Part shown: positions 6,758-26,948 of the stretch, piece after piece
How positions within the stretch are numbered: position 1 is the stretch's first letter
How the letters are laid out: each line of letters begins with the position of its first letter
Origin: a virus
Strand: one strand, 5' to 3'
Length of the DNA: 40,620 bases
IMG/VR virus record: IMGVR_UViG_3300037150_000037
Span: 1-40,620 of that record
The notes under the pieces: model-generated
Database searches by the model: none
What the model saw: only the letters and a program-made list of their open reading frames with translations
What the model was told of the DNA's origin: nothing
Program-made: the position numbers and the translations under genes

Positions 6758-7466
6758 TTTTGACAATGAACCATCCAACCGTCGTGTTGGCCGGCATTGG
6801 GCCGCTGGCTGTGATTGTGAATTGCGTAGTACCACAAGTAGCTCCTATTCCTGTCGATTGAGGTGTACCCAACCAGAACGGATATACCAATCCCGTGCTG
6901 GCCATGCCGGTAATTCCCGTTACGGTTACGCTGGATTGCCCGGAATTGATTGTCGCTGTCCCGCTCACGATGGCCGGTGCTCCAGGCTCGGTACCCAAAG
7001 ACAATTCCTGTCGCAAGTCCACCAGCATGGGAATATCCGGCATTCGGAAGTCAGGGGTGCCACTGGCAAGCGCGAACTGTGCGACGTACACCTTTGGTGC
7101 TATTGCGCTGGTTGGCGTCACGATGAAGCTTAATCGTCCACTAGCTGGCGCGTACCATGGAAGGTCTGAAGCATCCAGCCCAGACCATGCGGCAACCGCC
7201 GTACTGGAAAACCCGTTTCGCCAATCAGGAATAGTGTAGAGCGCGAAGTTACCCGTACTGTACTGTGACAGGTCAACGCAGACACTAGCCGGGGCCGTGC
7301 CGTCTGAGTTGGGCAAAAAATCAGGGCTGGTTACCGCCTGAATCCGTAGGCTGTAGTAATCCTGTCGGGTCAACTGAAGATCGGAGACGACCCTTCCCCG
7401 TCCCCATGGCGAAAAGAAATATCCTTCACCGTAGAGCAGATAAAGTATTCGTGCTTTGCCAGCCAT
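6750..7466 (-). CDS. Predicted tail or baseplate protein
   Basis: 238 residues, beta-rich, without signal peptide. The N-terminus (MAGKARILYLLYGEGYFFSPWGRGR) is compact. The C-terminal part has an Ig-like repeat feel (GTATINSGQSSVTVTGITG). It lies between the fibre-like gene and another structural gene, which suggests a tail-tip component. No family recognised. Confidence 0.55.
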   Translation of the reverse strand: MAGKARILYLLYGEGYFFSPWGRGRVVSDLQLTRQDYYSLRIQAVTSPDFLPNSDGTAPASVCVDLSQYSTGNFALYTIPDWRNGFSSTAVAAWSGLDASDLPWYAPASGRLSFIVTPTSAIAPKVYVAQFALASGTPDFRMPDIPMLVDLRQELSLGTEPGAPAIVSGTATINSGQSSVTVTGITGMASTGLVYPFWLGTPQSTGIGATCGTTQFTITASGPMPANTTVGWFIVKNA

Positions 7467-7469
7467 AAA

Positions 7470-7835
7470 TCACGCTTGCAGAATGTAATATTCGGCGTTG
7501 ACTCCGGCGGTGTTGGCAATGCCATGGACTGCCGCGCCGTTCCATGCCGTCAACACCCATCCGTTGGGATTTATCAGTATTGGATAGTTAGAACCATCCG
7601 CCCCTAAAGTCATGTAGTTTGTGGGGTCGGTGTTGTGAATCAGGATGTACCCAATAGTACCGCCGCCCAGCGAGGCGATGGGGAAGGCGGTATCGCTCGT
7701 GCCGATCAGGACAATGCCGGAGGACACCAGATTACCGGCCATAGCGAACTGTGCTGATAACTGGCGCTGGACGCTGGCCAACCCCGCATTGGTGGTCGCT
7801 GATAGTAAAGTATTTAGAGAAATTGTGTTGGCCAT
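7470..7835 (-). CDS. Small virion protein, beta-rich
   Basis: 121 residues. The region GTIGYILIHNTDPTNYMTLG and the closing NAEYYILQA resemble small beta-sandwich structural proteins of phages, in which a spatially invariant signal value is presented; no exact family can be named. A copy of the 22-bp TCGT/ACGA motif lies eight bases before the ATG, and the motif runs straight into the GAGG ribosome site. The same arrangement is seen at the tail tube gene, so this product may also be made in large amount. Confidence 0.5.
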   Translation of the reverse strand: MANTISLNTLLSATTNAGLASVQRQLSAQFAMAGNLVSSGIVLIGTSDTAFPIASLGGGTIGYILIHNTDPTNYMTLGADGSNYPILINPNGWVLTAWNGAAVHGIANTAGVNAEYYILQA

Positions 7836-8249
7836 TTATACCTCGTTTGGGGTGATTGTTACGATTGGGGAATGGTCAGGACAGGTGGTGCAGCAATGCA
7901 CCGTATTGTCTTTGACTTGGCGGGTGATCGTACAGTGGCCATGCACCGAGCAGGCGTGCAGGCTCTCCATGTGTTCTCCGCTGCAAGTCGCGCAGCTAGC
8001 CGTCTCGCCGGTGAGCTTGCCGAGACTGCTACAAGGTGGACGGGGTTTGACTGGCTTGCTTTGTTCTGCGCTCGCTTTATCGCGATAAACTCTGGCAGTT
8101 TCTATGGTGACGCCGAACGGACACTCCAAGCATGGCGCGTTAAAGCTTTCTCGCGTTACTGTATCTTCCATGAGATTCGCGCAGTGGATACGCGAGGCGC
8201 AAACCCGCGAGGGTGATTCCGCCGTGCCGGTGAATGAGTTGTAGTTCAC
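7836..8249 (-). CDS. Cysteine-rich protein, probable metal binder
   Basis: 137 residues with many cysteines, several in pairs: APCLECPF near 39, CATCSGEH, CSVHGHC, and HCCTTCPDHSP near the end. Such pairs suggest one or more zinc or iron-sulphur sites. No signal peptide. The start at 8249 overlaps the upstream stop as ATGA. It sits among tail-tip genes; the role is unknown. The last codons (ITPNEV) are written in the 22-bp motif that precedes the next gene, so the motif is under both coding and regulatory constraint here. Confidence 0.6.
   Translation of the reverse strand: MNYNSFTGTAESPSRVCASRIHCANLMEDTVTRESFNAPCLECPFGVTIETARVYRDKASAEQSKPVKPRPPCSSLGKLTGETASCATCSGEHMESLHACSVHGHCTITRQVKDNTVHCCTTCPDHSPIVTITPNEV
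7843..7864 (-). promoter_or_regulatory. 22-bp late-gene motif, copy A
   Basis: On the minus strand TCGTAACAATC, then ACCCC, then AAACGA. The outer TCGT and ACGA form inverted arms 14 bases apart. It is followed at once by GAGG, the ribosome site of the gene at 7470-7835. It lies inside the last codons of the upstream gene. Three more copies occur at 12725, 16271 and 19550. Confidence 0.7.
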
Positions 8250-8791
8250 GAGAATGTCACCGATACTGCGGCGCTACCGCCGGTAAGATTTGGCATGATG
8301 TAAGAGCCAACCCATCGTCCCCCTACAAGGGTGATGGTTCCGTCTGGCACTTGCCATTCATAAGAAGTTCCATAGCTGCAAGACCTGTCCGTTTCACTGC
8401 CTCCCCATGTGGCACCCCCGGTGCTAAGTGCTGACCAGAAATGCCCATCTGATTTCCAATAAACCAGCCACAGTTCGTACCCCGCGATGGCTGTGAGAAA
8501 AATTACGCAACAGGCCGACTGAGAATAGTTGGCGTTAAAGGAGTAGGTTCCATTTGCGACTGAGCCGCCACCGGTTGCTCCGGTGACAATCGCAGATGCA
8601 GCCGATGGAAGGTTGCTGCAATTAGCAGGAGGGGGGGCGCAGCAGCAAGGGTCACCGCTGCCAGCCACAACCGGGCCATTACTTTTCACTCGCACCTTGC
8701 CGTCTGCGCTTCCGACTTGTCTGAGATCGCCAGCACCCAGCCAGACCATGTTTGGAATCCAAAGTCCTGACGGTGTACGAGTGAGCCGCAT
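8246..8791 (-). CDS. Predicted tail-tip protein with cysteine cluster
   Basis: 181 residues from the start at 8791 (MRLTRTPSGLWIPN), chosen because it overlaps the upstream TAA by one base. The N-terminal 50 residues look globular (MVWLGAGDLRQVGSADGKVRV). A linker with GDPCCCAPPPANC follows, then a beta-rich C-terminal domain with W- and G-rich strands. No family recognised. Position between tape measure and fibre genes suggests a minor tail protein. Confidence 0.5.
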   Translation of the reverse strand: MRLTRTPSGLWIPNMVWLGAGDLRQVGSADGKVRVKSNGPVVAGSGDPCCCAPPPANCSNLPSAASAIVTGATGGGSVANGTYSFNANYSQSACCVIFLTAIAGYELWLVYWKSDGHFWSALSTGGATWGGSETDRSCSYGTSYEWQVPDGTITLVGGRWVGSYIMPNLTGGSAAVSVTFS

Positions 8792-9240
8792 TAGCAATTC
8801 GTCTGCTGTTCTTTTTCTTGCACAAACCCAAGGCAAAGCATTTGTGTCACGCCTGAGAAGTCGTAGAACGCTGTGCCATAAGAACCACTGGGTGCGACGG
8901 TACAGGCGCAGACCAATATTCTAGCTGGACTAAAATAAGGGGCTTGCGATGAACCGAGTTGGTTGCCGAGCAGATCATCCACGGTGTATGTGAAACTGCA
9001 CATGGTAATGGAACTGCCGGCAGAGCCGCCGTCATTTGTGACTTTGACCGGAAATACAAATGTTTGTGCAGCACCGAATAAGGGCCTTCTTACTTCCAAA
9101 CTTGTCCCATTCGGCCCGCCGAGCTGGTTGATGCCCACGCCAAGATTGGGTGTGTTTTGCCTGCCCAGTTGCCGGGTGTACCTATAATACTGCTGCGGTA
9201 CACCTTCCGCGTCGGTTGGAATGCTTGGGGGGTCAATCAT
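8791..9240 (-). CDS. Hypothetical structural protein, 149 aa
   Basis: A beta-rich protein without a leader. The middle (TFVFPVKVTNDGGSAGSSIT) reads like an immunoglobulin or carbohydrate-binding fold, followed by CSFTYTVDDLLGNQL. It has six cysteines, including the C-terminal residue. Tail-tip position; no family recognised. The stop overlaps the next start by one base (TAATG). Confidence 0.5.
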   Translation of the reverse strand: MIDPPSIPTDAEGVPQQYYRYTRQLGRQNTPNLGVGINQLGGPNGTSLEVRRPLFGAAQTFVFPVKVTNDGGSAGSSITMCSFTYTVDDLLGNQLGSSQAPYFSPARILVCACTVAPSGSYGTAFYDFSGVTQMLCLGFVQEKEQQTNC

Positions 9241-9248
9241 GCCGCACC

Positions 9249-9938
9249 TCAGCTATACAAATCCGTGTCCCAATAATCCGCGCCGAGCCACTCTTCGGTA
9301 CGTTCCCAGTAGGCTGAATCCTTGCGGCCTCGATCTGTGACTTTCAGCCACATATAACCACCGGGACAACCGCCAAACGGTGTCACCGTGGAGAATGTCC
9401 CCAGATTGGCCCCTACCGTAAGCAGGATGTAGTAATTCGTTATCTGCCGGGCTATCGGAGCAGCCACCAGATAAGCCGTTTCTCCCGCAAGAATCTTGGT
9501 GGCAAAATCCTTCGCATGACTGGATAGACTGGCGAATAAGGGCGTCCCGGTGGCCCGCCATTGAGCAATCTGAATCTGATCGGTACTGTTCAACGGCGCC
9601 GCTCCTCCTGAACGGTATCGGGGATGGCTTTCGAGAGGCTTCTGGATTTGCTGCCAGTCAACCTCGATGATTGCCCCTCCAAAACGATTCTCGGTCAGGA
9701 TGGTCATTTCACCCGAGCCACCGTCTCCACGGGGTTCGATATAGGCGTCCATCACCGGGAATCCGTCCGTGTACACCGAGCCAATCAAAGGCAGTTTGGT
9801 TTTGAGTACCGTCAATAGCCCTTCGGCCACGTATTTGTACTGGGTAGAAAGCAGGGTGTTTCGGATATACCCGGTCTTTGGGCCTAGCGGTGCCGCGGTG
9901 CTGCTTGGGTCTAGTGTGCCTTTGCCGATGTAGCTCAT
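9249..9938 (-). CDS. Predicted minor tail protein after the tape measure
   Basis: 229 residues. The sequence is mixed alpha/beta with GPKTGYIRNTLLSTQYKY at the N-terminus and WERTEEWLGADYWDTDLYS at the C-terminus. No known motif. Directly after the tape measure gene in lambda-type order are the tail-tip proteins (M, L, K, I), so a tip role is inferred, although no sequence match to those proteins is evident. Confidence 0.55.
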   Translation of the reverse strand: MSYIGKGTLDPSSTAAPLGPKTGYIRNTLLSTQYKYVAEGLLTVLKTKLPLIGSVYTDGFPVMDAYIEPRGDGGSGEMTILTENRFGGAIIEVDWQQIQKPLESHPRYRSGGAAPLNSTDQIQIAQWRATGTPLFASLSSHAKDFATKILAGETAYLVAAPIARQITNYYILLTVGANLGTFSTVTPFGGCPGGYMWLKVTDRGRKDSAYWERTEEWLGADYWDTDLYS

Positions 9939-9939
9939 G

Positions 9940-11265
9940 TCAGGGACTCGATATTGGCGGGCGCTTTTGCCCTACGCCGGTTTGGGTTTGCTTCATCAGC
10001 ATGACCATTTGCGCCGTGTTATTGGCTATTGCCTGCTGATAATCGAACACGGCAACCATGCTTGATCGGCCACGGCCTTCTCCTACGGTTCCGCCGATGC
10101 GCTTGAGACTGTCGGACTGCTTTTCCAAACTATGGTCTAGGCGGTTTTCAGTACGGGAAGCGGATGTCTCTTCGTGTTCCGCAGGGCGTTCGGCGCGATC
10201 ACGATTTCTTTTCAGGCGCGCGCGTTCCTCTTCCTCAACCCTAACGGCATTGCGGGTAGCGTCATTTCGTTCCCGTGTTTCCTCTTCCGCCATTCGCAGG
10301 GTTTCCTGCCGTTGGGTTTTCCCTTTGCGCCGCTCTTCCTCTTCCACCTTGATCTGGTTTCTTGAAGCGGCATTTTGTGCCCGGGTATTTTCCTCGGCCA
10401 TCCGTAGAGTCGCGCCGTGTTCCAAGGGTGTGTTTTCCGCGTCTTCATCCGTAGTGGTGCGCTTGCCTTCTTTGCTGGTATCCGCCGGGATGTTTTGCGA
10501 TAGACTTACGAAATCCGGCGACGGGCCTCCACCAAGGAATGCCTGTAATTTTCCTAGGAAAATAAGAGAATTCTCGGCGCTGGTTTCCAAAGCCTTTAGC
10601 GGATTGCCGATTGTCTCAACCGATATTACTTTCAGGTGTAACTCAATGCTCTTGATTAGCTCATCGTACTTCTTTGCTTGCTGAAGATCGGCCTCGGAAA
10701 TTATCTCCGCTTTGTTGGCCCTTTCCTTGGCTTCCGCAAAGTCGTTTACGAGTGCCGTCAAATCCCGGAAGCCCTTACCGAGAATGGCGTTTTGCGCCTG
10801 CAAACTTTCGGCGGCAGTCCCGGCGGAATGGGCGGCCTCCGCGTAGGCCATCAGTTGCTGATCGGCTGGCAATTCCAGAAACGATTTTACGTCAATTCCA
10901 AGTCTCACGAATGCCGCTGACAGCACCATGTCTCCGTCAGCCGCTTTCTGGGCTGAGATCATCAGCTTCTCGGTATTCTTGGTCAGGGACTCAACCGAGA
11001 TTCCCAGCGGCTCGGTGGCGGCTTCCATGCGTTGAATGGCTGCCGTGCTGATTCCCGTGGCATCCGCCAGCTTGATCGTGGCGGTAGAGAATTCCATGGC
11101 TTGATGCGCCAACATCCCAATACCGGAAAGGCCACCTATCCCACCGAGCATTGGGACTATCGCGCCCATGGCAAAGGAAAGTTTCTCAACGGACATCAGG
11201 GCCGAACTGATTGCCGATGTGAACTCGCTCGAGTCGAGTGAAAGCCGGGCTTTAAGTTCCGCCAT
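9940..11265 (-). CDS. Tape measure protein
   Basis: 441 residues from the ATG at 11265 with GGAGG eight bases before it. The N-terminus (MAELKARLSLDSSEFTSAIS) is the usual opening of phage tape measure proteins. A hydrophobic, glycine-rich stretch follows at 33-53 (AMGAIVPMLGGIGGLSGIG), then long helices. A 36-residue unit starting LRMAEE is repeated in tandem at about 287-322 and 323-358. The gene start overlaps the end of the frameshifted GT chaperone, as in lambda. It sets tail length; 441 residues is short for this family and predicts a short siphovirus tail. Confidence 0.75.
   Translation of the reverse strand: MAELKARLSLDSSEFTSAISSALMSVEKLSFAMGAIVPMLGGIGGLSGIGMLAHQAMEFSTATIKLADATGISTAAIQRMEAATEPLGISVESLTKNTEKLMISAQKAADGDMVLSAAFVRLGIDVKSFLELPADQQLMAYAEAAHSAGTAAESLQAQNAILGKGFRDLTALVNDFAEAKERANKAEIISEADLQQAKKYDELIKSIELHLKVISVETIGNPLKALETSAENSLIFLGKLQAFLGGGPSPDFVSLSQNIPADTSKEGKRTTTDEDAENTPLEHGATLRMAEENTRAQNAASRNQIKVEEEERRKGKTQRQETLRMAEEETRERNDATRNAVRVEEEERARLKRNRDRAERPAEHEETSASRTENRLDHSLEKQSDSLKRIGGTVGEGRGRSSMVAVFDYQQAIANNTAQMVMLMKQTQTGVGQKRPPISSP
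10192..10407 (-). repeat. Tandem 36-residue repeat in the tape measure gene
   Basis: Two in-frame units each contain LRMAEE, then a TR..NAxxRN stretch, then VEEEER and a basic tail. The period is 108 bases. Tape measure proteins can change tail length by gaining or losing such units. Confidence 0.6.
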
Positions 11266-11922
11266 CAGCAAGCCCTCCGATTGTGTCCTGCAATTCCTCG
11301 ATCATGCTTTCGTCCGACTGCACCGTAGCGATTCCCTTTTCCAGCAAGGCCACATGTTGCAACTGTAACCCCTGCGACAATGGCAATCGCCAAAGACAGA
11401 AGTCCCGTCCCCAGCCAGTCAGGCCCGCAATGCTGCCGATGTACTGGGCCACGTACCCCGGCGTGATTAGTTTGGGCGTGGGGGTGCATCCGATTCCACC
11501 GTGTAATTATCCGCCTTTCGAGCGGCAGTGAGTATGTCTGAGATTCTCGGCTCGCAGTCCATGACTTCCTTTTGCGTGAACCTCTGGAGGAAGGCGTGCA
11601 GGTTCTGAAAGAACAAATCAGGTTCCCAACAGGCTTTGAGAACTTCTTTTTCATCTCCCGCGTGGATGTAAAGAAACATGCCGATGTAGTAGTAACCGCT
11701 GAGATTCAACCGGGATTTTTCGTTTGGAGTATTGGCCAGAAGTTTCGCCAGTTTCTCTTTCAAGACAACGCGCATCTGTTCAAGTTGTAATTGAGTACCG
11801 GCTGCGTAGGGCCGCAAGGTCAAATCCTTCACCGTAGAATCCGGGCGTATGAACTCCTTGTCTCCTCCCTCGGTGCTCACGGATTCAAGCTGTTGAATAA
11901 CAACCGCGTCAGTGTCTGCCAT
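11252..11922 (-). CDS. Tail assembly chaperone GT, made by -1 frameshift
   Basis: The frame of 11467-11922 can continue into the -1 frame after the slip at 11470-11476 and read on to the stop at 11252, giving about 223 residues. The added part begins LITPGYVAQYIG and holds LWRLPLSQGLQLQHVALLE, the kind of sequence seen in the T part of lambda-type G-T proteins. It overlaps the tape measure start by 14 bases, as is common. The fused form is known to bind tape measure protein and tail tube during tail assembly. Confidence 0.75.
11467..11922 (-). CDS. Tail assembly chaperone G
   Basis: 151 residues from the ATG at 11922 (MADTDAVVIQQLES), which has GAGGAGA seven bases upstream; a longer frame starting further up would run deep into the upstream gene. 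The protein is acidic and helical with FFQNLHAFLQRFTQKEV in the middle. It lies just before the tape measure gene and ends right after a slippery heptamer, the hallmark of lambda-type G proteins. It overlaps the upstream gene by 14 bases. It should act with the GT form as a chaperone in tail assembly. Confidence 0.75.
   Translation of the reverse strand: MADTDAVVIQQLESVSTEGGDKEFIRPDSTVKDLTLRPYAAGTQLQLEQMRVVLKEKLAKLLANTPNEKSRLNLSGYYYIGMFLYIHAGDEKEVLKACWEPDLFFQNLHAFLQRFTQKEVMDCEPRISDILTAARKADNYTVESDAPPRPN
11470..11476 (-). promoter_or_regulatory. Slippery heptamer CCCAAAC for -1 frameshifting
   Basis: In the G frame the reading is C CCA AAC followed directly by TAA. A slip back by one base re-pairs both tRNAs as CCC and AAA and opens a frame of 72 codons. 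The X-XXY-YYZ form, the place at the end of G and the T-like product all agree. Confidence 0.8.
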
Positions 11923-12355
11923 TGGAATCTCCTCGGTTTGGAATTGGTTTGATGAAAATCTTTCCGTCTCGGCGGGCCAGTAGATGCAGTGGCAAACCCT
12001 TCGTGGCATCCTTCAATCGTTCCCAGTTGTGCCACATGGTGAGAATCAGCGTCAGGACTTGCGGCATGTACTGATCTGGTATCGCTTGGGAGTTGGCCGC
12101 GCACCAGGCTTGCGGGTCGCTAAATGCCTTTTGAATCATCCCGGCAAGTTTCCCGGTCTGGAAAAAGAAGAAGCAGGTTTCGCCATTGCCGCCGGTCACC
12201 CTCATGGCGTGCAGGTTGCCGTCGCCCTGCAAAACGGGGAGCACTTCCTTGATCGAATAGAGTAGGGCCGCTTCCTTGGTGTTGCGGGTTTTTAGCGTGG
12301 TGAAATCCACACTACCGGCAATCTCAGCGGTTTGGGGAATCTGGTCGGCGTTCAT
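11909..12355 (-). CDS. Hypothetical tail-region protein, 148 aa
   Basis: A protein with MNADQIPQTAEIAGSVDFTTL at the start and a helical C-terminus (YMPQVLTLILTMWHNWERL). It lies between the tube candidate and the G chaperone. It might be an additional tail assembly factor; no family recognised. It overlaps the G gene start by 14 bases. Confidence 0.55.
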   Translation of the reverse strand: MNADQIPQTAEIAGSVDFTTLKTRNTKEAALLYSIKEVLPVLQGDGNLHAMRVTGGNGETCFFFFQTGKLAGMIQKAFSDPQAWCAANSQAIPDQYMPQVLTLILTMWHNWERLKDATKGLPLHLLARRDGKIFIKPIPNRGDSNGRH

Positions 12356-12359
12356 GTGC

Positions 12360-12716
12360 CTATGCTATTCCGCTGACACAAATAGCTTTGAACGTACCCT
12401 TGACGAAACTTTTATTCGTGTACCGTCTGCCGTAGGCGTAAACGTAAACACCCGCGCCAGAGAACGGCACATAAGTCGTAAGTGCAATCGTGCTGCCGAT
12501 GGCCGTCACGTCCGTCCCAAGGAACAAATAGCCGCCATTGATGTCCGCGCGATTGGAGTGATGGATGGCAAATCCTACAACATTATCCTGCTCATCAGCA
12601 GCCTCGGTGACTTGCCCGGGAATCTCTGCGTCAAGATTCTCCATGATGACCCCGACTACGCTACACACGCCAAAACTTAATCCTGCCGTGCCTTTTACTG
12701 TCGCTGGTGTTGCCAT
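12360..12716 (-). CDS. Major tail tube protein candidate
   Basis: 118 residues, beta-rich, with MATPATVKGTAGLSFGVCSV at the start and GSTIALTTYVPFSGAGVYVY later. It occupies the position of lambda V, after the terminator-like gene and before the chaperone genes. It is small for a tube protein, and the call is by position and composition. A copy of the 22-bp late motif with a built-in GAGG ribosome site sits nine bases before the ATG, which fits a gene needing high expression. Confidence 0.55.
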   Translation of the reverse strand: MATPATVKGTAGLSFGVCSVVGVIMENLDAEIPGQVTEAADEQDNVVGFAIHHSNRADINGGYLFLGTDVTAIGSTIALTTYVPFSGAGVYVYAYGRRYTNKSFVKGTFKAICVSGIA

Positions 12717-12724
12717 TATGTACC

Positions 12725-12746
12725 TCGTTTAGGTTGAATGTTACGA
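12725..12746 (-). promoter_or_regulatory. 22-bp late-gene motif, copy B
   Basis: On the minus strand TCGTAACATTC, AACCT, AAACGA, followed by GAGGTA and then the start of the tube candidate. Same arms and spacing as copies A, C and D. It lies in the short gap between two genes. Confidence 0.7.
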
Positions 12747-12748
12747 TA

Positions 12749-13228
12749 CTACGGGCCAGCCATGGGCATGGCCCAACAGGTGAATTTGAACTCCTGATCC
12801 CAAGACCTGTCATGCTCCGTTCTGGGCATGGGTTCATCCCTCACAACGCTGTTTGGGAATACGTATAGGGCTACAGGTATGGTTTGGGCCGCTGCCCAGG
12901 TATTGATCGCCCCGGGAATGTCGCTCCACATCAGGATAGACCGCAGGTTGGCCCATTGCGTGCGCTGCGTGGCCGCTACGGTGTCATCTGCCTGCGTGGA
13001 GAGTAGAACGCTCACGGCCAGCTTAAACACCCCGGTTTCAGGGTCGCACTCTTCCTGTTGCTCTGCCTTGACTACCGCAGACGGCGGCGTGCGCGCTGTG
13101 GTGCTATCCTGTAACTCCTGATAGAGGTTTACACCTAGCGTGATGCCGTGTAGCGCAGAATCGCCTATGAACGCGATTAGCGCCTGTTCAAAGGAGTCCT
13201 CTAAAGCCATGCTGGAATCAGTGGGCAT
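12749..13228 (-). CDS. Tail terminator-like protein
   Basis: 159 residues. The start at 13228 (MPTDSSMALED) is preferred because GTGGAG lies at good distance. The middle (ETGVFKLAVSVLLSTQADDT...) and the general size fit the lambda U / HK97 gp-type tail terminator, which caps the tube and joins it to the head. It sits in the U position of the lambda order. It overlaps the upstream gene by 11 bases. Confidence 0.55.
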   Translation of the reverse strand: MPTDSSMALEDSFEQALIAFIGDSALHGITLGVNLYQELQDSTTARTPPSAVVKAEQQEECDPETGVFKLAVSVLLSTQADDTVAATQRTQWANLRSILMWSDIPGAINTWAAAQTIPVALYVFPNSVVRDEPMPRTEHDRSWDQEFKFTCWAMPMAGP

Positions 13229-13928
13229 TATTGAACTCCACAGCGCGGGCGTCTAACTGATTTTTGACATAAGCCAGCATGTCCTCGCGCTCTTCGTCCA
13301 CGGCCTGTACCAGCCCGGACCCGCCAACCCGAAACAAAGCCTCTTCGCTTGATCGGCTCTTGGGGTTGACACTGCTGTTTGTTATCTCAGCGAATACGTT
13401 GTGGCCCGCTTTGGCTATTCGCACGCCGCCCTTCCCCGCCCTGTCGCGCGGCACATGGTAAAAGGCGTTCTGTACCACACTCTGAAGTCTTCTAATGGCC
13501 GGGATCCAACCAGCCAAAATGAAGCTCACGCTGGCCACGCGCTTGCGAACCATCTTGTATGCGCTGGCCTGTATCTCGACACTTCTGGGCATTCCGCCCT
13601 TGCCAACCTTGCGGAAAATCCTGGCAGCCATGATGTTGTACCCCAGTGATTTGGTGCTGACGATTCCCTGCTGGTGCGCCCGCTGTGATTTGCTGATCTT
13701 CCCGCGCTTGGTGAACGTAAGGGCATGACCTACAATCTGGCCCAGTTCGCTTTCAACTGCCGGGGCGTTGGCGTATCCCGTATGAGCTATTGCACGCCAG
13801 GCCACTTGATAAGCCGCACGATTACAGGCTTCTGCATTATCAATCTTGCGTTCAGCAGCATACTTTTCCAGTGCCGATGTGAAGTTCTGCCGGCTGGTTT
13901 CGTCCAGAACCATTCGAGCACCACTCAC
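13218..13928 (-). CDS. HK97 gp10-like tail completion protein
   Basis: 236 residues, basic and helical at the N-terminus (LDETSRQNFTSALEKYAAERK), with QRAHQQGIVSTKSLGYNIMA and a basic middle. Position between the connector and terminator matches lambda Z and HK97 gp10-type proteins. The start overlaps the upstream stop as ATGA; a second ATG five codons later is possible. The protein is somewhat longer than usual for gp10-like proteins. Call mostly from context. Confidence 0.5.
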   Translation of the reverse strand: MSGARMVLDETSRQNFTSALEKYAAERKIDNAEACNRAAYQVAWRAIAHTGYANAPAVESELGQIVGHALTFTKRGKISKSQRAHQQGIVSTKSLGYNIMAARIFRKVGKGGMPRSVEIQASAYKMVRKRVASVSFILAGWIPAIRRLQSVVQNAFYHVPRDRAGKGGVRIAKAGHNVFAEITNSSVNPKSRSSEEALFRVGGSGLVQAVDEEREDMLAYVKNQLDARAVEFNNAH

Positions 13929-14242
13929 TTGTTCACACCTTGGAGGTACAAAGTTGTAACTGGGTCTTCGTTGCTGCCCTTGGTGGTAACTACGCGCATG
14001 AGAGGGCCGCCCTGAATCGAAAGTGTTTGGCCGATGTTCACCGTTATCTCGGTGTTGAGCACTTCCAAACCTCCGTCAAAGTCCACCATGAACCCGCCAG
14101 AGGACAAGGGAAGCATGTCCTTGGTGTCTAGTTGGACTCCGTAAAACGTGATTGTATTGCCGGTGACTAGGAATGGCACGCCAAACGCCTCCCTTGCTTC
14201 TGTGAAGGCGTCCGCTATCTGCGTTCCCCAGTCTGCGCTCAT
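13925..14242 (-). CDS. Head-tail connector-like protein
   Basis: 105 residues from the ATG at 14242 (MSADWGTQIADAFTEAREAFG). The sequence IADAFTEAREAFGVPFLVTG followed by beta strands is in keeping with FII-type joining proteins, and the gene occupies the FII position. The ATG comes directly after the T-run of a strong terminator, with no ribosome site visible, so how it is translated is unclear. Confidence 0.6.
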   Translation of the reverse strand: MSADWGTQIADAFTEAREAFGVPFLVTGNTITFYGVQLDTKDMLPLSSGGFMVDFDGGLEVLNTEITVNIGQTLSIQGGPLMRVVTTKGSNEDPVTTLYLQGVNK

Positions 14243-14245
14243 AAG

Positions 14246-14280
14246 CAAAAAGGCCCGCCCGGTCTGGCCGAGCGGGCCTT
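14246..14280 (-). terminator. Intrinsic terminator between capsid and connector genes
   Basis: On the minus strand AAGGCCCGC pairs with GCGGGCCTT (nine bases), the inner bases can pair further, and TTTTTG follows. It would stop part of the transcripts coming from the capsid gene cluster before the connector and tail genes. Confidence 0.8.
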
Positions 14281-14300
14281 GTAAAATTACTTCCGTTTCG

Positions 14301-14615
14301 TCAGTTCGTGTTCCAAAGCCCGGTCTGAATAGCGATGTAATTCAGATTGGAAATTGTCACAGCCAGATTGGCCGTAGTGTTGGTGAGCACGGTTAAAGTC
14401 AATCGCTTCGTGGGTGTTGCGCCCCAGAATCCAATGCCGTCGGTGGAGTTCTGGCCGATCTGTATTCCTGCTCCAGTGATCTTGACCCACCCGCCACTTG
14501 GGGATGTAGGCCCGAACTGCGCATCCACCGGCTGAGAGTACCAGCGCAAACCCTCACTAACACAGAGCGCCAAACTCACTGCCGCAACCAATCCCCAAAA
14601 CGTGCTTTTCTTCAT
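14301..14615 (-). CDS. Small secreted protein after the capsid gene
   Basis: 104 residues. A Sec-type leader (KKSTFWGLVAAVSLALCVSEG) is followed by a short beta-rich part (GGWVKITGAGIQIGQN and LTLTVLTNTTANLAVTISNL). The second half resembles the T/N-rich style of the secreted protein at 19078-19539. A signal peptide on a gene in the capsid cluster is unusual. The start overlaps the upstream stop as ATGA, and the terminator follows its stop. Confidence 0.6.
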   Translation of the reverse strand: MKKSTFWGLVAAVSLALCVSEGLRWYSQPVDAQFGPTSPSGGWVKITGAGIQIGQNSTDGIGFWGATPTKRLTLTVLTNTTANLAVTISNLNYIAIQTGLWNTN

Positions 14616-14833
14616 TTCTTCACCTGCGCTGCCGTCTGCGGTTTGACTTCCCGATGTTTCGATACCAACTGCACCTCGACTCGTCCGAACCCGATCTCTA
14701 CCAGTCCAGGAACACCCATTTCCCTAATCTCCCTGAATCGGGCCTTGACCGCCGTGAGGTTCTCGCTACAGAGAATCACTTTCACGGCTCCCTTGGCGTC
14801 CTTGCCAAGCACTGCATGTGCCTTGATCGACAT
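14612..14833 (-). CDS. Hypothetical protein, 73 aa, next to the capsid gene
   Basis: A small basic protein with MSIKAHAVLGKDAKGAVKVI and RFREIREMGVPGLVEIGFG. It lies directly after the capsid gene, three bases from its stop, in the lambda FI region. It might be an accessory head protein. No family recognised. Confidence 0.55.
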   Translation of the reverse strand: MSIKAHAVLGKDAKGAVKVILCSENLTAVKARFREIREMGVPGLVEIGFGRVEVQLVSKHREVKPQTAAQVKK

Positions 14834-14836
14834 TGA

Positions 14837-15760
14837 CTACGGGCCCACCGGGTTGATACGAACCAGCTGATTGTAAGCCGGGCTGGCGCTCGCGGCAGCA
14901 TCCGTGATAGCCGCGACACCGTACAACGCTCCAAAACTCAAATACTGCAAGCCTGCGTTGCCGTCGTACCACATGCGCAACTGCATCGGAATGCCTGCCA
15001 CGGTGATGTTCTCGACTTCGCCGTACCAGTTCGTGGGGTCAGCCACTCGCCGAGCGGCGAATACCAAGGCCTGTTTGCCGGTGGCGATGGCCGTTACACC
15101 CGAATTGACCGTGGTGAGCCATGGGAACTCAACCAGATCGAAGCCCATGCCCTGACTTACCGTACCGTCCACGATTACCTTGGGCGTGCCATACGCATAA
15201 GCCGCCTTGAAGCTCGTGTCTTTGCGGAGTGCATTGAAGATGTCCGAGTTGCCAAGGAACATCTGGCCTTGCATCGGCACAAACGCCTTTCGGAGAATCG
15301 TGCTGACATCCGAGAGAGCGTCAGAATCAAAACTGGAGCTGACAATCGAATAGTTCTGCGGGAAACTGATCGTATTGACGTTGTTGGCACCGAGCAGTGC
15401 CTTGTAGAACCCGTATGCCGCCGAATTGGCGAGAGGCTCGTAAACCATCTTCTGTAGGTCAATGCTGGACTCGCTGACCTGCACATCGCTGAAGAAAACA
15501 ACCGAACCGCTGAAGTTGGTGAGGGTAACCGTCACGCTGGTCGTGGTGGTCGCTGCGGCCGCCGTGGAATAGCCAGCCGAAAGATCGGTTGCCGAATAGC
15601 TCTGGACAACGCGGGTGACCACTGCGGCACCGCGCTCGGAAATGTCGTTGGACAAATCCAAGGTGAACCGGGACAGGGCATCCAGTTGTGGGAGCAGCGT
15701 CTTGGCTGTCTCCTGCGCGATTGCGGTGAGGTTTACGCCATTGAGTAAATTGACTGCCAT
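14837..15760 (-). CDS. Major capsid protein, HK97-fold type
   Basis: 307 residues. The N-terminal helix (LTAIAQETAKTLLPQLDALS), the strand-rich middle (VTVTLTNFSGSVVFFSDVQV), FVPMQGQMFLGNSDIFNALR and the basic-aromatic C-terminal part (IPMQLRMWYDG) are the general pattern of HK97-fold coat proteins. It follows a scaffold-like gene and an S49 protease gene, as in lambda-type head clusters. It has no obvious cleaved delta domain of its own, which fits use of a separate scaffold. GGAG lies at good distance before the start. Confidence 0.8.
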   Translation of the reverse strand: MAVNLLNGVNLTAIAQETAKTLLPQLDALSRFTLDLSNDISERGAAVVTRVVQSYSATDLSAGYSTAAAATTTTSVTVTLTNFSGSVVFFSDVQVSESSIDLQKMVYEPLANSAAYGFYKALLGANNVNTISFPQNYSIVSSSFDSDALSDVSTILRKAFVPMQGQMFLGNSDIFNALRKDTSFKAAYAYGTPKVIVDGTVSQGMGFDLVEFPWLTTVNSGVTAIATGKQALVFAARRVADPTNWYGEVENITVAGIPMQLRMWYDGNAGLQYLSFGALYGVAAITDAAASASPAYNQLVRINPVGP

Positions 15761-15778
15761 AAATTCATTCTCCTGCTG

Positions 15779-16243
15779 TTACTGATCGAAACGTGAACGC
15801 TCGTTTTTGGCCACAAACAAATCCCGGTGCTTCATGTAGAACGCATCGGCCATCTTCTGGCCACTGGGTTTGACCGCCTGAAGCCGCTTGTACTCGATAC
15901 GAGCGGTTTCCGCCGTGAAGGAATCTGTGGCGATGCTGGCACCGGCCACTTGGGAGGGTTTCCCGCCCGCTTCCGCTACGATCTGCGCGGCCTTCTGCTC
16001 CGCCGTCTGCTTATCGCCTTCCAGCTTGGAAATCTTGTCGTTGGCAATTGTGAGGTTGCCGGTGAGGGTAACGACTTTACCGTCCGCCGTCGCCAGTTTG
16101 CCGGTGAGATCAGTAACGGACGTTTGCGCCGTCACCAGTTTCCCGTCGGCTTCCGTGCGCAGCTTGTTGGCTTCCGCCAGTTGCTGCGTCAGGGTTTCCA
16201 CCGATGCTTTGTACTCGTCGCGCTCTTGGGTAACAGTTTTCAT
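15779..16243 (-). CDS. Scaffold protein
   Basis: 154 residues. Residues 1-85 form an almost unbroken coiled coil (ERDEYKASVETLTQQLAEAN and further LTGKLATADGK units), then a linker AGGKPSQVAG and a basic helical C-terminus (YMKHRDLFVAKNERSRFDQ) that probably binds the coat protein. Size, coiled coil, and position between protease and capsid genes fit a head scaffold that the protease later removes. Motif copy D precedes the gene. Confidence 0.7.
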   Translation of the reverse strand: MKTVTQERDEYKASVETLTQQLAEANKLRTEADGKLVTAQTSVTDLTGKLATADGKVVTLTGNLTIANDKISKLEGDKQTAEQKAAQIVAEAGGKPSQVAGASIATDSFTAETARIEYKRLQAVKPSGQKMADAFYMKHRDLFVAKNERSRFDQ

Positions 16244-16270
16244 AAAATCGTGTCGGCTTGATTGCCCTTT

Positions 16271-16292
16271 TCGTTTGGGATGATTGTTACGA
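16271..16292 (-). promoter_or_regulatory. 22-bp late-gene motif, copy D
   Basis: On the minus strand TCGTAACAATC, ATCCC, AAACGA. Here the arms extend to TTTCGT and ACGAAA (six bases). It lies 28 bases before the scaffold start in the 113-base gap after the protease gene, so it is not tied to a ribosome site, unlike copies A to C. Confidence 0.7.
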
Positions 16293-16356
16293 AACGAAGG
16301 AAAGAATCCCCCAGAAACTCAATAGACAAATCCCCGAGCCGTTATCGCTAATTGAA

Positions 16357-17205
16357 TCAGCGTAGTAAATCCGGCGGGTCAAGCAGCAGACAATCCCTCA
16401 CCGCTGTCTCAAAATCGCTTACCTGATCGATCAGGCCGCATTCCAAAGCGTCACATGCCCGGAAGCTTTGACCGCGCATGGCGTCCATGGACACCTTTCG
16501 GCTTGCCAGAATGTGCGTAGTGAAGTCACTGAAAATGTCCTGTACCCTCTTTTGCAAATGCTCTTCCTGCTCCGCTGTTAGCGCAGTACCCGGTAGCCCC
16601 ATGCCCTTAAAAGTGCCTTCCTTGTTCTTGATTACCTTGACGGATACGCCTTCCTGCTCGTATGCCCGGGTTTCGTCAGCCCATGGGATGTAAACGCCGA
16701 TGCTGCCAACTTCGCTTCCCCGACTCGCATAGATCGCCCGCGCGCCCGCCGCCAGCCAGTAAGCCCCTGAATCCATCTGGCCATCGGTGAACGCCAGCAC
16801 CGGCTTTGTTTCATTGGCCTCCCGAATCTTGTCTCCCAACTCAGGCACGCCGCGCACCGAGCCGCCCGGGCTGTCGATGTCCAGAAGTATGCAACTCACG
16901 TTATCATCGGCCATGGCGGCATCGATGTCGGCGCTAATCTGCTCTACGCCCACCATGCCGCTACTGCGCTCAATACCAGATACCCCCTTGCCGATAATCC
17001 CGTGAATCGGCACGATTGCACAAAGGTTCCCCGTGTCGCCCGTAAGCTGGAATTGGTCTTTGGCAGTTGCCTCGACTTCGTATTCATCTGATACCCGCGC
17101 ACCAGCCAGCTTGGCCTGCACCACCATCCTGATTTTGGCGTGGGCCGATTCGGTGATTACCCATGGCTCATTGAGGACGGCTTGGAGTACGTGCAAAAGT
17201 TTCAT
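16357..17205 (-). CDS. Prohead protease, S49/SppA family
   Basis: 282 residues from the ATG at 17205, which overlaps the portal stop as ATGA. The S49 fold is clear: ILLDIDSPGGSV near 106-117, the nucleophile Ser146 in DGQMDSGAYWLAAGA, GSIGVYIPWAD near 168-177, and the likely base Lys200 in EGTFKGMG. The family includes lambda C, which matures the head by cutting scaffold and portal. Position between portal and scaffold agrees. Confidence 0.85.
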   Translation of the reverse strand: MKLLHVLQAVLNEPWVITESAHAKIRMVVQAKLAGARVSDEYEVEATAKDQFQLTGDTGNLCAIVPIHGIIGKGVSGIERSSGMVGVEQISADIDAAMADDNVSCILLDIDSPGGSVRGVPELGDKIREANETKPVLAFTDGQMDSGAYWLAAGARAIYASRGSEVGSIGVYIPWADETRAYEQEGVSVKVIKNKEGTFKGMGLPGTALTAEQEEHLQKRVQDIFSDFTTHILASRKVSMDAMRGQSFRACDALECGLIDQVSDFETAVRDCLLLDPPDLLR

Positions 17206-18806
17206 GGCGTGTTTCCGTTTCCGTTGTTTTTCTTGACGCGATTCTTGCCGGGTTCTGGTGCACCGTTTTCCTTTGGCTCTGGCAATGGCTCGGTGGACGT
17301 TTGACGATTTATATCGCGCTTCTGAAGCAGGTGCATTGCGTCCGTCTCGGTGAGCCACGGGTATTTCTTGGACAACTCAGTGGCCTGATCGCACCGCTTG
17401 ATGGTGGCTTGCAGAATATCATTCTGCAAATCGTCGTAGTCGTTTCCGTCTTGGTCGGCATCCATCTGCGGAGAGCGGATTCCGGTCAGTATGTCCTCGC
17501 GGTTTTCCTTGTTGACCTTGGTGACATCCGCCGTGAGTAGCGCCGGGCCTTTCCATTCCTGGTGCCACCACTTGGCCGGCACCGGCCCGATTTCCCCGAG
17601 TCCGCCTTTGCTCTTTGGAGTCGCCGCGCAAGCAATCGCCCAGTTTCGAATTGGCCTGAGCATCTTGTCTTCTTCCAGCCTTTGTACTTCCTGAAATCGG
17701 TACTGGTTGCGAATCAGGGCCGCGCGAAGTGTTGCCCCGCCTTCCTTGAACAAGTTCCGCCAGTTGGCCGTAAGACCGACCGCCAATAGCGTGTCGCTTT
17801 CCAGTTCCTCGATAAACCGCACGACCTGATCGCTGGGCCGGTCGCTGCGATTTACATTTATCTTTTCCCCTATTTTTCCATGAAACATCTTGCCACTAAG
17901 AAGCACGTCCATGGAAACATTCGGGGAGGCATTGGTGCTGTTGTCATCCGGTGGGTTCTGCGCGTTGACCTGTTCATCCCATTCGTTCTGTGGCCACGCT
18001 CCACCTACCGTTTCCGTCCATCCCAATAATGCCGCGTCATGCTTGGCCTGCATCTTGAGGTATAGCTGCAAATCTTCCACGTCCCGCAAGTGATTCAGTA
18101 CCGGCGCAAACCAGGTCATACCCCGGTGGCCCGTAGACCTGTCAGGCTCGTACACATGAATAAAATCGTTGGCTAATACTTCCCGCACTTCGCCGTCGCT
18201 GGTTTCTCCGAACACCAGCCGGTATTTGTACGGCATCCCGAGCTTGTTCAGGAACACGCCGTCCACCAGATTGTCTTTGTCAGCCTGAGGGGGTTGTAGT
18301 CCCAAACCGTTTCCGATCTGGTGTCCCTCAATAAAGCAAATCTTGGGGAAATTGTTTTCCGTTTTGATCTTGCAGATGCCGTGATCGCCGTCACGAGGCA
18401 TGGCTGTCAGGCTCATCCGCTGGAAATCCACCAGGGAGAATCTGCCGGTAATATCGCAAATCTTTGACCATTGCGCGAACCAGTCATCAGCCTCTGTGTT
18501 CCAACCGGCATTATCCGAGAGCGATTTGCATCGTAGCCCGTAAGGGCCAAGGCTAAATAGCTGTAGGTCGCGCAGAATGCCCCGGGGGAAACCGTAGTTC
18601 TCAACGAGCCGCCGGGAGTGGGACATGCAGGCGATGCGTTCCCACGGGATGTTTGTCTTGTCGGCGTCACTGCTTCTAATCGGTTGCCATGAGCGATTGC
18701 GGGTGATGTTGACCGCCTCGTGCATGAATTGCCAAGCACGAGGGGTAAGGCGATTCCCTGTAGCCACTCGATACCGCAATTTGTCTATGATATTTGGTTT
18801 ACGCAT
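17202..18806 (-). CDS. Portal protein, lambda gpB family
   Basis: 534 residues. Typical stretches include SRRLVENYGFPRGILRDLQ near 64-82, GHRGMTWFAPVLNHLRDVED near 226-245, and LFKEGGATLRAALIRNQYRF further on, matching lambda-type portals. Twelve copies form the ring at the head vertex through which DNA passes. The C-terminal 30 residues are polar and low-complexity (EPLPEPKENGAPEPGKN), possibly removed by the protease. Next to the W-like and protease genes, as in lambda. Confidence 0.85.
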   Translation of the reverse strand: MRKPNIIDKLRYRVATGNRLTPRAWQFMHEAVNITRNRSWQPIRSSDADKTNIPWERIACMSHSRRLVENYGFPRGILRDLQLFSLGPYGLRCKSLSDNAGWNTEADDWFAQWSKICDITGRFSLVDFQRMSLTAMPRDGDHGICKIKTENNFPKICFIEGHQIGNGLGLQPPQADKDNLVDGVFLNKLGMPYKYRLVFGETSDGEVREVLANDFIHVYEPDRSTGHRGMTWFAPVLNHLRDVEDLQLYLKMQAKHDAALLGWTETVGGAWPQNEWDEQVNAQNPPDDNSTNASPNVSMDVLLSGKMFHGKIGEKINVNRSDRPSDQVVRFIEELESDTLLAVGLTANWRNLFKEGGATLRAALIRNQYRFQEVQRLEEDKMLRPIRNWAIACAATPKSKGGLGEIGPVPAKWWHQEWKGPALLTADVTKVNKENREDILTGIRSPQMDADQDGNDYDDLQNDILQATIKRCDQATELSKKYPWLTETDAMHLLQKRDINRQTSTEPLPEPKENGAPEPGKNRVKKNNGNGNTP

Positions 18807-18809
18807 TTG

Positions 18810-19076
18810 TTAGTGCGGCTGGTAAGAGCTAAAATTGGCGTACGTGCTATCCCGGGCTTTGCCCCAGACCTTGGGATTCAGGATTGTCAGATACCGAAAG
18901 CACTTGCTGATCTCGGCCTGGATCTGCTCCGGGGTAAGGCTGATTCGGGTGAAACTTTTGCCGCCTGTTGACAGAGCCACGTACTGTTTACCCAACGACA
19001 ACGCCACTTCCATGGCCTTATAATTGTCCAGTAGTTGCTTCCACTCCTGCTCTGTGCGGCCCTCGACAAACTTCAT
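18810..19076 (-). CDS. gpW-like head-tail joining protein
   Basis: 88 residues. The pattern LLDNYKAMEVALSLGKQYVA, a short beta hairpin (LSTGGKSFTRISLT), and then EQIQAEISKCFRYL is helix-hairpin-helix like lambda gpW, which closes the portal before tail attachment. It sits just upstream of the portal gene, the W position. The similarity is structural rather than a clear sequence match. Confidence 0.6.
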   Translation of the reverse strand: MKFVEGRTEQEWKQLLDNYKAMEVALSLGKQYVALSTGGKSFTRISLTPEQIQAEISKCFRYLTILNPKVWGKARDSTYANFSSYQPH

Positions 19077-19077
19077 G

Positions 19078-19539
19078 CTACAAACCCGGTTTGGTGTTGC
19101 CGATTAACGTAGGGAAATTGGTCAGGTTGGCCGTGCCATTGGTAATCGTGTTGCTGATAATCACCAGCAGGGTATCCGCCGCGTTTGCGGTGAAGTTCGA
19201 CGTGCAATACACTGCCAAAGTTCCGGCGTTTACAATCGACATGCTACCTATGGCGTTGGTATAGAGCCCGCTGCCGTCGTCCTGGGAATAGATTTTTGCC
19301 ACGGTATTGCTGCTGTTGGGCGCGTTGTTGGACACGATCAGAACAAACTGAACCTGGCTGCAATCCCGCATGGGAAGCGTGATGGTAAGGACATTGGTGC
19401 TGTTCCAGTTATTTGAGGCGTTGAGCGTGCTGCCGCTGAATAACCGCACGGGGCTGGCCTTTGAAACCAGTGCCGGCAGGGTGATTAGGCCGAAGGGCAG
19501 GACTACCAAAACCAGCAATCTAACGAGCAATTTCTTCAT
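19078..19539 (-). CDS. Small secreted protein with late-gene motif
   Basis: 153 residues from the ATG at 19539, eight bases after GAGG. The leader KKLLVRLLVLVVLPFGLITL is a clear signal peptide or anchor; the mature part is rich in N, T and S with a beta pattern (TNVLTITLPMRDCSQVQFVL) and two cysteines. No family recognised. It sits between the glycosyltransferase block and the head genes and is preceded by motif copy C, so it may be strongly expressed late. Confidence 0.6.
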   Translation of the reverse strand: MKKLLVRLLVLVVLPFGLITLPALVSKASPVRLFSGSTLNASNNWNSTNVLTITLPMRDCSQVQFVLIVSNNAPNSSNTVAKIYSQDDGSGLYTNAIGSMSIVNAGTLAVYCTSNFTANAADTLLVIISNTITNGTANLTNFPTLIGNTKPGL

Positions 19540-19549
19540 AAAATGTTCC

Positions 19550-19571
19550 TCGTTTGAGGACATTGTTACGA
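19550..19571 (-). promoter_or_regulatory. 22-bp late-gene motif, copy C
   Basis: On the minus strand TCGTAACAATG, TCCTC, AAACGA, followed by GGAACATTTT and the ATG at 19539. Same arms and spacing as the other three copies. It lies in the gap after the gene at 19584. Confidence 0.7.
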
Positions 19572-19583
19572 AAAAATTGGGGG

Positions 19584-19793
19584 TTAGATGGTGCCGGCCA
19601 GATTGTTCGCCCTACGCAGTGACGGCTGATCTGGTGGACTTAACTCATCCAAATCCTTGATGAAATCCTTCACAATATCAGCCTGCAATTTGAGCATTTG
19701 CTCCGATAATGTGGCTGGCGGGTGCTCGTCTGGTAGTGTACACATGACGGCCAATGTCTTGCGCCATTTTAGCTTTATCTCTTCCAGTCTCAT
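19584..19793 (-). CDS. Hypothetical protein, 69 aa
   Basis: A small helical, charged protein (MRLEEIKLKWRKTLAVMCTL ... IVKDFIKDLDELSPPDQPSL). Its start overlaps the stop of the glycosyltransferase gene as ATGA. No family recognised and no leader. The coupling suggests a partner of the glycosyltransferase or simply a tightly packed transcript. Confidence 0.5.
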   Translation of the reverse strand: MRLEEIKLKWRKTLAVMCTLPDEHPPATLSEQMLKLQADIVKDFIKDLDELSPPDQPSLRRANNLAGTI

Positions 19794-20659
19794 TTTTCCA
19801 ACAAGCTCCTTGGGTTTTTAGTGAACGATTCAAGTCCCCAGTGACACACTTTGGCCATCATGTCCCCATAAATCTTGAATCCCAAATCCCGGCAAAGGTT
19901 ACTGAAGGCGTAGTCTTCCCCGAAATGCTGGCTCTTGTCCCTGGCGAATCCGGGCTGAAAGAAACTGTGCATGTAGGGTTGCAGGTGTTCCGGTACGCCG
20001 TCGCCACAAGTCCATTTCAGGTCAGGCCGTTTCTGGATGATGCGTTCAAACACTTCGCGCTTGATTAGCATTCCACCGGCGGGCAATCTATCTGCCAAAG
20101 CAATTCCGTCCTCTTCTTTCGCCCCCTCAGATAGGACACCTGAACACACCAGCCCCACTTCTTCCCATACCACATCTTTGGGCTTTACCTTATGATCCCA
20201 AATATCCTGTCCAACATTGTCATACTCCGCCCAGTCCCTTTGTTTTTTGGCGTAGCACATCCCTAACACCGGCTTGTCCATGGCCAGCATCCTGAGAATG
20301 TCGTCATTGTACCACCAGTGATCAGAGTCCAGAAACATCAGGTGCGTGCAGTTCCCCGATAGGAAATCCGCCGCCATGATGTTCCGGGCCAAGGCCGCGT
20401 CGCTGTTTCCCTTCTGGACGCTCCACTTGTGGGGCAGTCCCATTTTGTGCAGTAGCTGGATTGTCTGGACGATTGCCAGCGTGAAATCCGGCGGGGTCAT
20501 GCCGTAGATGATGCTGCCCATGAATAGCCGCACGTCGCGCTTTAGGCCCGCGATGTCCAGTTCAAACTTATCGCCGGGCAGTACGGTGTAGTATTTATGG
20601 GCCTTGACCTCGGGCATCTGCGGGAATTTGGTTGCATCGCCCCAGTTTAATTCTGGCAT
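19790..20659 (-). CDS. GT-A fold glycosyltransferase
   Basis: 289 residues. The stretch SDAALARNIMAADFLSG, then THLMFLDSDHWWYNDDILRM, holds a DSD metal/nucleotide-sugar site typical of GT-A enzymes, and LPAGGMLIKREVFERI fits the acceptor side. GEDYAFSNLCRDLGFKIYGD near the C-terminus is also usual for this group. It would transfer a sugar from an activated nucleotide donor. Donor and acceptor are unknown; virion proteins, the cell surface or DNA are possible targets. It belongs to the sugar block at 19.8-23.1 kb. Confidence 0.75.
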   Translation of the reverse strand: MPELNWGDATKFPQMPEVKAHKYYTVLPGDKFELDIAGLKRDVRLFMGSIIYGMTPPDFTLAIVQTIQLLHKMGLPHKWSVQKGNSDAALARNIMAADFLSGNCTHLMFLDSDHWWYNDDILRMLAMDKPVLGMCYAKKQRDWAEYDNVGQDIWDHKVKPKDVVWEEVGLVCSGVLSEGAKEEDGIALADRLPAGGMLIKREVFERIIQKRPDLKWTCGDGVPEHLQPYMHSFFQPGFARDKSQHFGEDYAFSNLCRDLGFKIYGDMMAKVCHWGLESFTKNPRSLLEK

Positions 20660-26847: not shown

Positions 26848-26918
26848 GCTTTCACCCAACGCCGGGATTGTGGATGTCAACGATTCGCCCGAAAAGTCGG
26901 AGTCGTCTAAGTATTTTC

Positions 26919-26936: not shown

Positions 26937-26948
26937 TTATGCACTTTA

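Follow-up and report, generated by a model that had tools for sequence, protein, structure and literature searches.

The virus in IMG/VR record IMGVR_UViG_3300037150_000037 (positions 1-40,620; this whole 40,620-bp stretch is called the window here) carries a short two-box element, TCGTAACAWTNNNCYNAAACGA, in four exact copies, all of which lie on the minus strand, as do the majority of its genes. The copies occupy 7843-7864, 12725-12746, 16271-16292 and 19550-19571, each a short distance ahead of a gene of the structural region. In three related phages, partly similar elements stand at the heads of orthologous genes, and by sequence comparison the element is conserved by position in a small phage clade. 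We lean towards reading it as a compact, directional, phage-specific late promoter that lacks both sigma70 and sigma54 boxes.

Four copies in the window and their counterparts in relatives

The sequence-only reading of the window had placed a 22-bp pattern at exactly these minus-strand positions, and both the sites and the pattern were confirmed, with 16 of the 22 columns invariant over the four copies (TCGTAACA, T at position 10, C at position 14, and AAACGA). When up to three mismatches were allowed, there were still only four matches, dinucleotide shuffles averaged 0.13 and none of 100 shuffles reached four. In a de novo test for gapped 8+6 motifs, a four-copy motif appeared in 0 of 40 dinucleotide shuffles and one three-copy motif in 3 of 40. 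A position-weight scan of the window found no fifth copy, the next best place scoring 13 bits compared with 32-36 bits for the four sites. Across IMG/VR, the exact 22-mer was present in 103 stretches with one copy each and in none with more than one; 103 single matches are about the chance level for a collection of that size, the size being our own estimate. A scan of genome contigs for the motif gave only a distant alphaproteobacterial match.

Copy 1 (TCGTAACAATGTCCTCAAACGA, 19550-19571, minus strand, exact match) lies 10 nt upstream of the ATG of a secreted-protein gene, which heads the pre-portal, portal and protease run. The longest open reading frame (ORF) at this site starts within the motif (ATG ending at 19563), and the gene likely starts at the downstream ATG that has GAGG ahead of it, giving a product that begins MKKLLVRLLVLVVLPFGLI. 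Copy 2 (TCGTAACAATCATCCCAAACGA, 16271-16292, minus strand, exact match) is found 27 nt upstream of the ATG of a scaffold-like gene, and copy 3 (TCGTAACATTCAACCTAAACGA, 12725-12746, minus strand, exact match) 8 nt upstream of that of a tail-tube candidate. Copy 4 (TCGTAACAATCACCCCAAACGA, 7843-7864, minus strand, exact match) precedes the ATG of gene 7470-7835 by 7 nt and sits at the 3′ end of ORF 7836-8249, in whose frame it encodes ...VTITPNEV-stop. The sequence-only reading had one site inside coding sequence; copy 4 does fall within this ORF, but the ORF is unconfirmed as a gene. The three copies at 7843, 12725 and 19550 run directly into GAGG, as had been described. The site at 16271 departs from this pattern of a well-placed ribosome site: AAAAGGG follows shortly after the motif, whose distance to the ATG is 27 nt.

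The closest relative is IMGVR_UViG_3300009285_003650 (G001; loci L110 and L231-L234; 40,821 bp; coordinates are given on its reverse complement), which is collinear with the window through the virion block (capsid 54%, portal 48%, protease 50%, large terminase 47%, tube candidate 48%). G001 is without the window motif and has an element of its own, GTTGACATTCNNGNNNTAWAYGAC, at exactly three places (5695, 8325 and 12450). These precede the ortholog of the pre-portal gene 18810-19076, the scaffold gene and the tube candidate, and are the counterparts of the window sites at 19550, 16271 and 12725; the first of them stands directly upstream of the pre-portal ortholog, which corresponds to the gene next after the secreted-protein gene. 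In a scan of the whole of IMG/VR, the G001 pattern was found in six stretches, and in more than one copy (three) in G001 only.

In two further relatives, IMGVR_UViG_3300042691_007767 (L181, also L111) and IMGVR_UViG_3300032116_010859 (L108), the large terminase is 46% identical to that of the window. L181 carries the element GTTGACACC-N6-C-N5-GAA before the pre-portal gene (3628), the scaffold (5830), the gene preceding the tube candidate (9799) and the tube candidate itself (10250); within IMG/VR, three copies of a pattern of this type occur in its own contig only. L108 has GTTGACACC before the pre-portal gene (4350) and the scaffold (6610), and an extra copy at 4225 with no gene start behind it. 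The scaffold start, served by copy 2 in the window, is preceded by a variant in all three relatives, and the ortholog of the tail-tube candidate, served by copy 3, in G001 and L181. Position-weight scores separate these sites from the remainder of each genome (35-37 bits, next best 12.6, in G001; 29-31 bits, next best 15.3, in L181). A search for the motif at the same genes of related phages, suggested in the sequence-only reading, thus succeeded by position, each of the three relatives having its own variant at orthologous gene heads. The best near-match upstream of a capsid gene, in L169, is a single copy that runs over the end of the preceding gene, and was taken as chance.

The agreement in position was evaluated on the 65 nt ahead of each of the pre-portal, scaffold and tube genes, using the best shared 24-mer and, as null, random triples of upstream windows. 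In the window and in G001 this 24-mer is invariant at 17 columns each, and in L181 at 14-15; none of the approximately 1,430-1,460 random triples per genome agreed as well (null maximum 12-13). In the same test, the Verrucomicrobia phage P8625 gave 12 columns (1 of 1,458 triples), which derive from a repeat of its own, GTATCC...GGATAC.

The element measures about 22-23 bp overall and consists of two boxes, cGTAACAwT and AAACGA in the window, and GTTGACAYY and a WWNYGA-like ending (YGA or similar) in the relatives, which have 2 nt more between the boxes. All 13 sites of the window and the relatives are oriented with their gene. Counted from the end of the second box, the ATG is 0, 0, 1, 1, 1, 2, 4, 7, 8, 10, 12, 24 and 27 nt away, and the box never extends beyond the ATG taken as start, although G001 8325 has a second in-frame ATG 6 nt earlier, inside the box. 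A Shine-Dalgarno sequence follows the element only where there is room for it (GAGG in the window, GAAGGA in L181, AAAGGA in G001); at the sites without such room, an mRNA starting behind the element would be leaderless. The scaffold gene is separate from the protease gene in the window and G001, unlike in L181 and L108, where the scaffold coding region lies in frame inside the protease ORF (5215-6327 with an internal start at 5857 in L181; 6109-7086 with an internal start at 6634 in L108). In both of these phages, the element lies just upstream of the internal ATG of the nested scaffold. A comparable nesting is that of lambda Nu3 within C.

The TCGT/ACGA arms, by which the sequence-only reading had described the motif, did not hold up as an essential feature: they occur in the window copies only and are absent from the sites of the relatives, which keep the boxes. 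RNA folds of the leaders were no better than those of shuffles (z ~0) at three of the four window sites, and an Rfam search of the element gave no match. A dyad operator and an RNA hairpin were both rejected, because the arms are not conserved and there is no excess fold stability at those three sites.

A proposed late promoter and its alternatives

If the element is a late promoter, transcription would start at, or a few bases past, the 3′ end of the second box, and the resulting mRNAs would be leaderless or have a very short leader, with the Shine-Dalgarno sequence near the 5′ end. Separate late transcripts would then be produced for the scaffold-capsid group, the pre-portal group, the tail-tube candidate and one distal gene. 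The reader would probably be either an alternative sigma factor of the host or its RNA polymerase redirected by a phage factor, and the boxes of different phages would have diverged together with it.

Action in transcription, the start point and such a reader are our inference. A start fixed at the 3′ edge of the element would explain why the distances follow this rule, why all sites point one way and why the element stands ahead of a gene nested inside another. As the element ends 0-27 nt before the ATG and never past it, the best-fitting place for a 5′ end is its 3′ edge; a distance this variable is consistent with a motif-fixed 5′ end and any leader length, and not with a ribosome signal of fixed spacing. 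The element before the internal ATG in L181 and L108 supports a promoter because the nested scaffold needs a separate start. Furthermore, P8625 and more distant relatives have TTGACA approximately 34-43 nt before the ATG at some of the same positions (in P8625, gp08 before the portal, and gp15), which suggests that a promoter is the usual occupant there; the fixed start would account for this as well.

Known promoter classes were compared with the sites. A sigma70 scan of 7000-20000 returned 9 promoter-like sites compared with 7.6 in shuffles, and only the 12725 site overlaps one of them, with the second hexamer lying across the ATG. In the relatives, TTGACA is not followed by a second hexamer at 17 bp. 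A sigma70 promoter, which would have TTGACA- and TATAAT-like hexamers 16-18 bp apart and a start about 7 bp after the second, was rejected, since the region 7-12 bp before the presumed start is variable; the sequence-only view that the motif is not sigma70-like was borne out. A sigma54 promoter was likewise rejected, as the 13 aligned sites have no invariant GG/GC pair (-24/-12, 10 bp apart). The geometry resembles that of promoters of T7-type polymerases, in which an element of about 23 bp holds the start in its 3′ part and is read by a phage single-subunit polymerase; none was recognised among the ORFs scanned.

Several observations weigh against a late promoter. The variable stretch 7-12 bp before the presumed start is where a -10 box should be. 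No T7-like single-subunit RNA polymerase, and no phage sigma factor or known activator, was recognised among the proteins scanned, which cover part of the ORFs; the largest ORFs of the window read as terminase, portal and tail-fibre proteins. For copy 4, no counterpart was seen at G001 gene 18270, and the L108 pair taken alone is weak, 33 of 2,930 random pairs being equally good. Because the exact boxes differ between phages, as does the spacing by 2 nt, we infer homology of the elements across phages from position and partial similarity. The structure model of the one candidate regulator introduced below is too poor to use (pLDDT 51).

That candidate is a helix-turn-helix-like gene (26029-26574, minus strand) directly upstream of the small terminase gene (terS). 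Its product had no matches in phage records, and its syntenic counterpart in G001 (L231:58-594, minus strand) is weakly alike. As a regulator of the element it is a candidate only.

Alternatively, the element could act on RNA, as a recognition site on a long late mRNA. An endonuclease or RNA-binding protein acting there would generate or shield a 5′ end, or control whether the next gene is translated. At most sites the motif directly adjoins the start codon or ribosome site, processing would likewise yield leaders of 0-27 nt, and cluster K mycobacteriophages have start-associated repeats with a proposed translation role (PMC3203893). We nevertheless consider this rather unlikely, given the missing conserved fold and Rfam match, the varying distance to the ATG, and the TTGACA promoter-like sites at some of the same positions in distant relatives. 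The sequence-only suggestion of a regulatory-type element of late structural genes is supported, and of the forms it named, a new promoter type and action on RNA are both possible.

An operator, at which a phage repressor or DNA-binding protein on the motif would block or gate passing transcription in the manner of mycobacteriophage L5 stoperators, appears improbable. Short fixed repeats at gene heads in a single orientation would suit it, and two L181 copies are perfect palindromes around the first box (GGTGTCAAGTTGACACC and GTGTCAACCGTTGACAC), as a dimer site would be, but the palindrome is kept neither at other sites nor in the window. The element is also confined to the heads of late structural genes. 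The window has only four copies, all in the late region; stoperators of the L5 type are scattered over the genome. The scanned proteins included no recognisable integrase or repressor, and nothing indicates a lysogenic state.

Late activators are common in phages, and TATAAA (7843) and CATAAT (12725) do occur 16-18 nt after GTAACA, as expected if the element were an activator site of the Mu C or P2 Ogr type for a downstream sigma70 promoter. The other two window sites have no such -10 box, however, and transcription would begin within the gene, past a well-placed Shine-Dalgarno sequence and ATG, which makes this very improbable. The sequence-only idea of a late activator, taken as a simple activator site with a downstream start, is further disfavoured because the start codon or ribosome site would be cut off: the element of the relatives often ends 0-2 nt before the ATG, and window copies run into the Shine-Dalgarno sequence. 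A chance repeat, or coincidence with a 16S rRNA-like sequence, has a negligible probability: three copies contain the 9-base TCGTAACAA, which also occurs in 16S rRNA, but the relatives' boxes lack this string, so the resemblance was rejected, and the shuffle tests and orthologous positions argue against chance.

Late-gene control in Verrucomicrobia phages is essentially unstudied. If the element is indeed a promoter, it would provide a specific sequence from which starts at capsid and tail genes can be predicted and a route to the phage factor that reads it, and it would imply that promoters of a phage family keep their places while type and sequence change. It also offers a sequence handle for locating late operons in uncultured phages. 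A bolder proposal, which we regard as possible but doubtful, is that late promoters of two boxes and 22-23 bp, lacking -10/-35 hexamers, form a new promoter class. They would depend on a phage-encoded specificity factor and give leaderless or near-leaderless capsid and tail mRNAs in phages of Verrucomicrobia-type hosts.

Genes served and other repeats of the genome

The gene order of the window is small terminase, large terminase, glycosyltransferase-like genes, portal, S49 protease, scaffold-like gene, major capsid, tail genes and fibre. Family matches support the assignments of the capsid (PHROG 267), the portal and the S49 protease. The tail tube, a candidate in the sequence-only reading, is a positional candidate only. 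All genes served lie on the minus strand. The secreted-protein gene extends over 19078-19541 (upper end approximate, with the start at the ATG after GAGG; the longest ORF reaches 19563) and is followed by the small pre-portal gene (18810-19076; G001 ortholog 39.5%), the portal gene (17202-18806; PF05136, 8.9e-35) and the S49 head maturation protease gene (16357-17358; PF01343, 5.5e-25; phrog_53). Between protease and capsid, the scaffold-like coiled-coil protein (15779-16243) matches G001 8353-8820 weakly and had no family match in a PHROG scan. The major capsid protein (14837-15760; phrog_267, 1.2e-15) is 34% identical to that of P8625, its sole match among phage records; because of this match, the host is probably a verrucomicrobial bacterium. 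The tail-tube candidate (12360-12716; 48% to G001 12503-12841) had no Pfam or PHROG match, and its structure model is unusable (pLDDT 36). The small virion-region protein (ORF 7470-7835) resembles G001 18270-18680 by eye and had no family match in PHROG or Pfam.

The record also contains a 173-nt direct repeat (98% identical) at 428-600, near one end, and at 40448-40620, the other end; the genome may be circularly permuted, or the assembly may overlap, in which case 427 bases are extra.

A different repeat, the 17-bp GGTAGTGGGCTACTTTG, is present in seven exact copies in both orientations in the early region: 26919(+), 27721(-), 27761(+), 29551(-), 31956(-), 32871(+) and 35518(-). Its minus copies are followed after 1-7 nt by an ATG, which in two cases belongs to a gene that looks truncated (methyltransferase-like, 35244-35516; radical-SAM-like, 31544-31954). 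Groups of genes are flanked by copies arranged as inverted pairs. It is absent from all of the approximately 310 other loci compared, and may be an operator, an early promoter or the end of a mobile cassette. Adjoining its copies are an 87-nt perfect repeat (35039-35125 and 35535-35621) and a 240-nt repeat of 82% identity (26917-27156 and 27759-27998), both of which are signs of recent rearrangement.

In P8625 (L109), promoter-like sites of the form TTGACA-17-TATTGG/TATCTG are found 36 nt before start codons (5412-5448, 10736-10772 and 15558-15594, also near 9634 and 17541); its GTATCC...GGATAC repeat, which covers the second box, is likely an operator on late, possibly leaderless promoters. 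Among the more distant relatives (L112-L228), TTGACA is strongly enriched 30-44 nt upstream of start codons (31 after thinning versus 3.6 expected), with 8 of the 31 being stop codons of the upstream ORF. This suggests that short-leader or leaderless promoters of the sigma70 type are a common style in these phages. TTGACA at 17-25 nt before ATGs of distant relatives was dropped as a wider class, as 9 of 13 cases are stop codons of the upstream gene.

Comparison with known systems

A limited literature search found no description of the present element, and the word promoter is absent from the P8625 genome paper. Short phage-specific elements repeated before late genes are known from the late promoters read by T4 gp55 and T7 RNA polymerase, and T7 promoters are about 23 bp long with the start near their 3′ end. 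Their sequence is unrelated to the element described here, and no gp55-like factor or T7-like polymerase was recognised among the window proteins scanned. The TTGACA sites of P8625 (gp08, gp15 and gp22) share with it some of the same gene heads (pre-portal, and the gene before the tube candidate), TTGACA and a start codon close behind. They differ in having the second hexamer and the GTATCC...GGATAC repeat over it; at this spacing, a second hexamer is missing from the window and its close relatives.

The stoperators of mycobacteriophage L5, in the account cited in PMC3203893, are 13-bp asymmetric repeats at many gene junctions and are similar in this respect, but they are bound by a lysogeny repressor, and neither repressor nor integrase was recognised here among the proteins scanned. 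The extended start-associated sequence (ESAS) of phage Adephagia is likewise a gene-head repeat proposed to hold promoters, its function being unproven (PMC11373665). It is 46-47 bp long, and its sigma-A-like -35/-10 hexamers, separated by 17-18 bp, and its inverted repeat have no equivalent in the present element (PMC11373665).

The start-associated sequences (SAS) of cluster K mycobacteriophages are 13-bp GGGATAGGAGCCC-like repeats that include the Shine-Dalgarno sequence and lie 3-7 bp before start codons (PMC3203893). Like the present element, SAS is a short asymmetric repeat, nearly always in one orientation, a few bases before starts, specific to a phage group and of unproven function; it differs in that it contains the Shine-Dalgarno AGGAG and lies in the non-structural half of the genome (PMC3203893). 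The element described here has two boxes, stands upstream of the ribosome site at structural genes only and keeps a variable distance of 0-27 nt to the ATG. Membership in SAS was rejected on the grounds of the differing sequence, this distance and the Shine-Dalgarno sequence outside the motif. Taken together, the element may be a variant of phage-specific late promoters or of start-associated repeats, and it is also possible that it forms a promoter class of its own.

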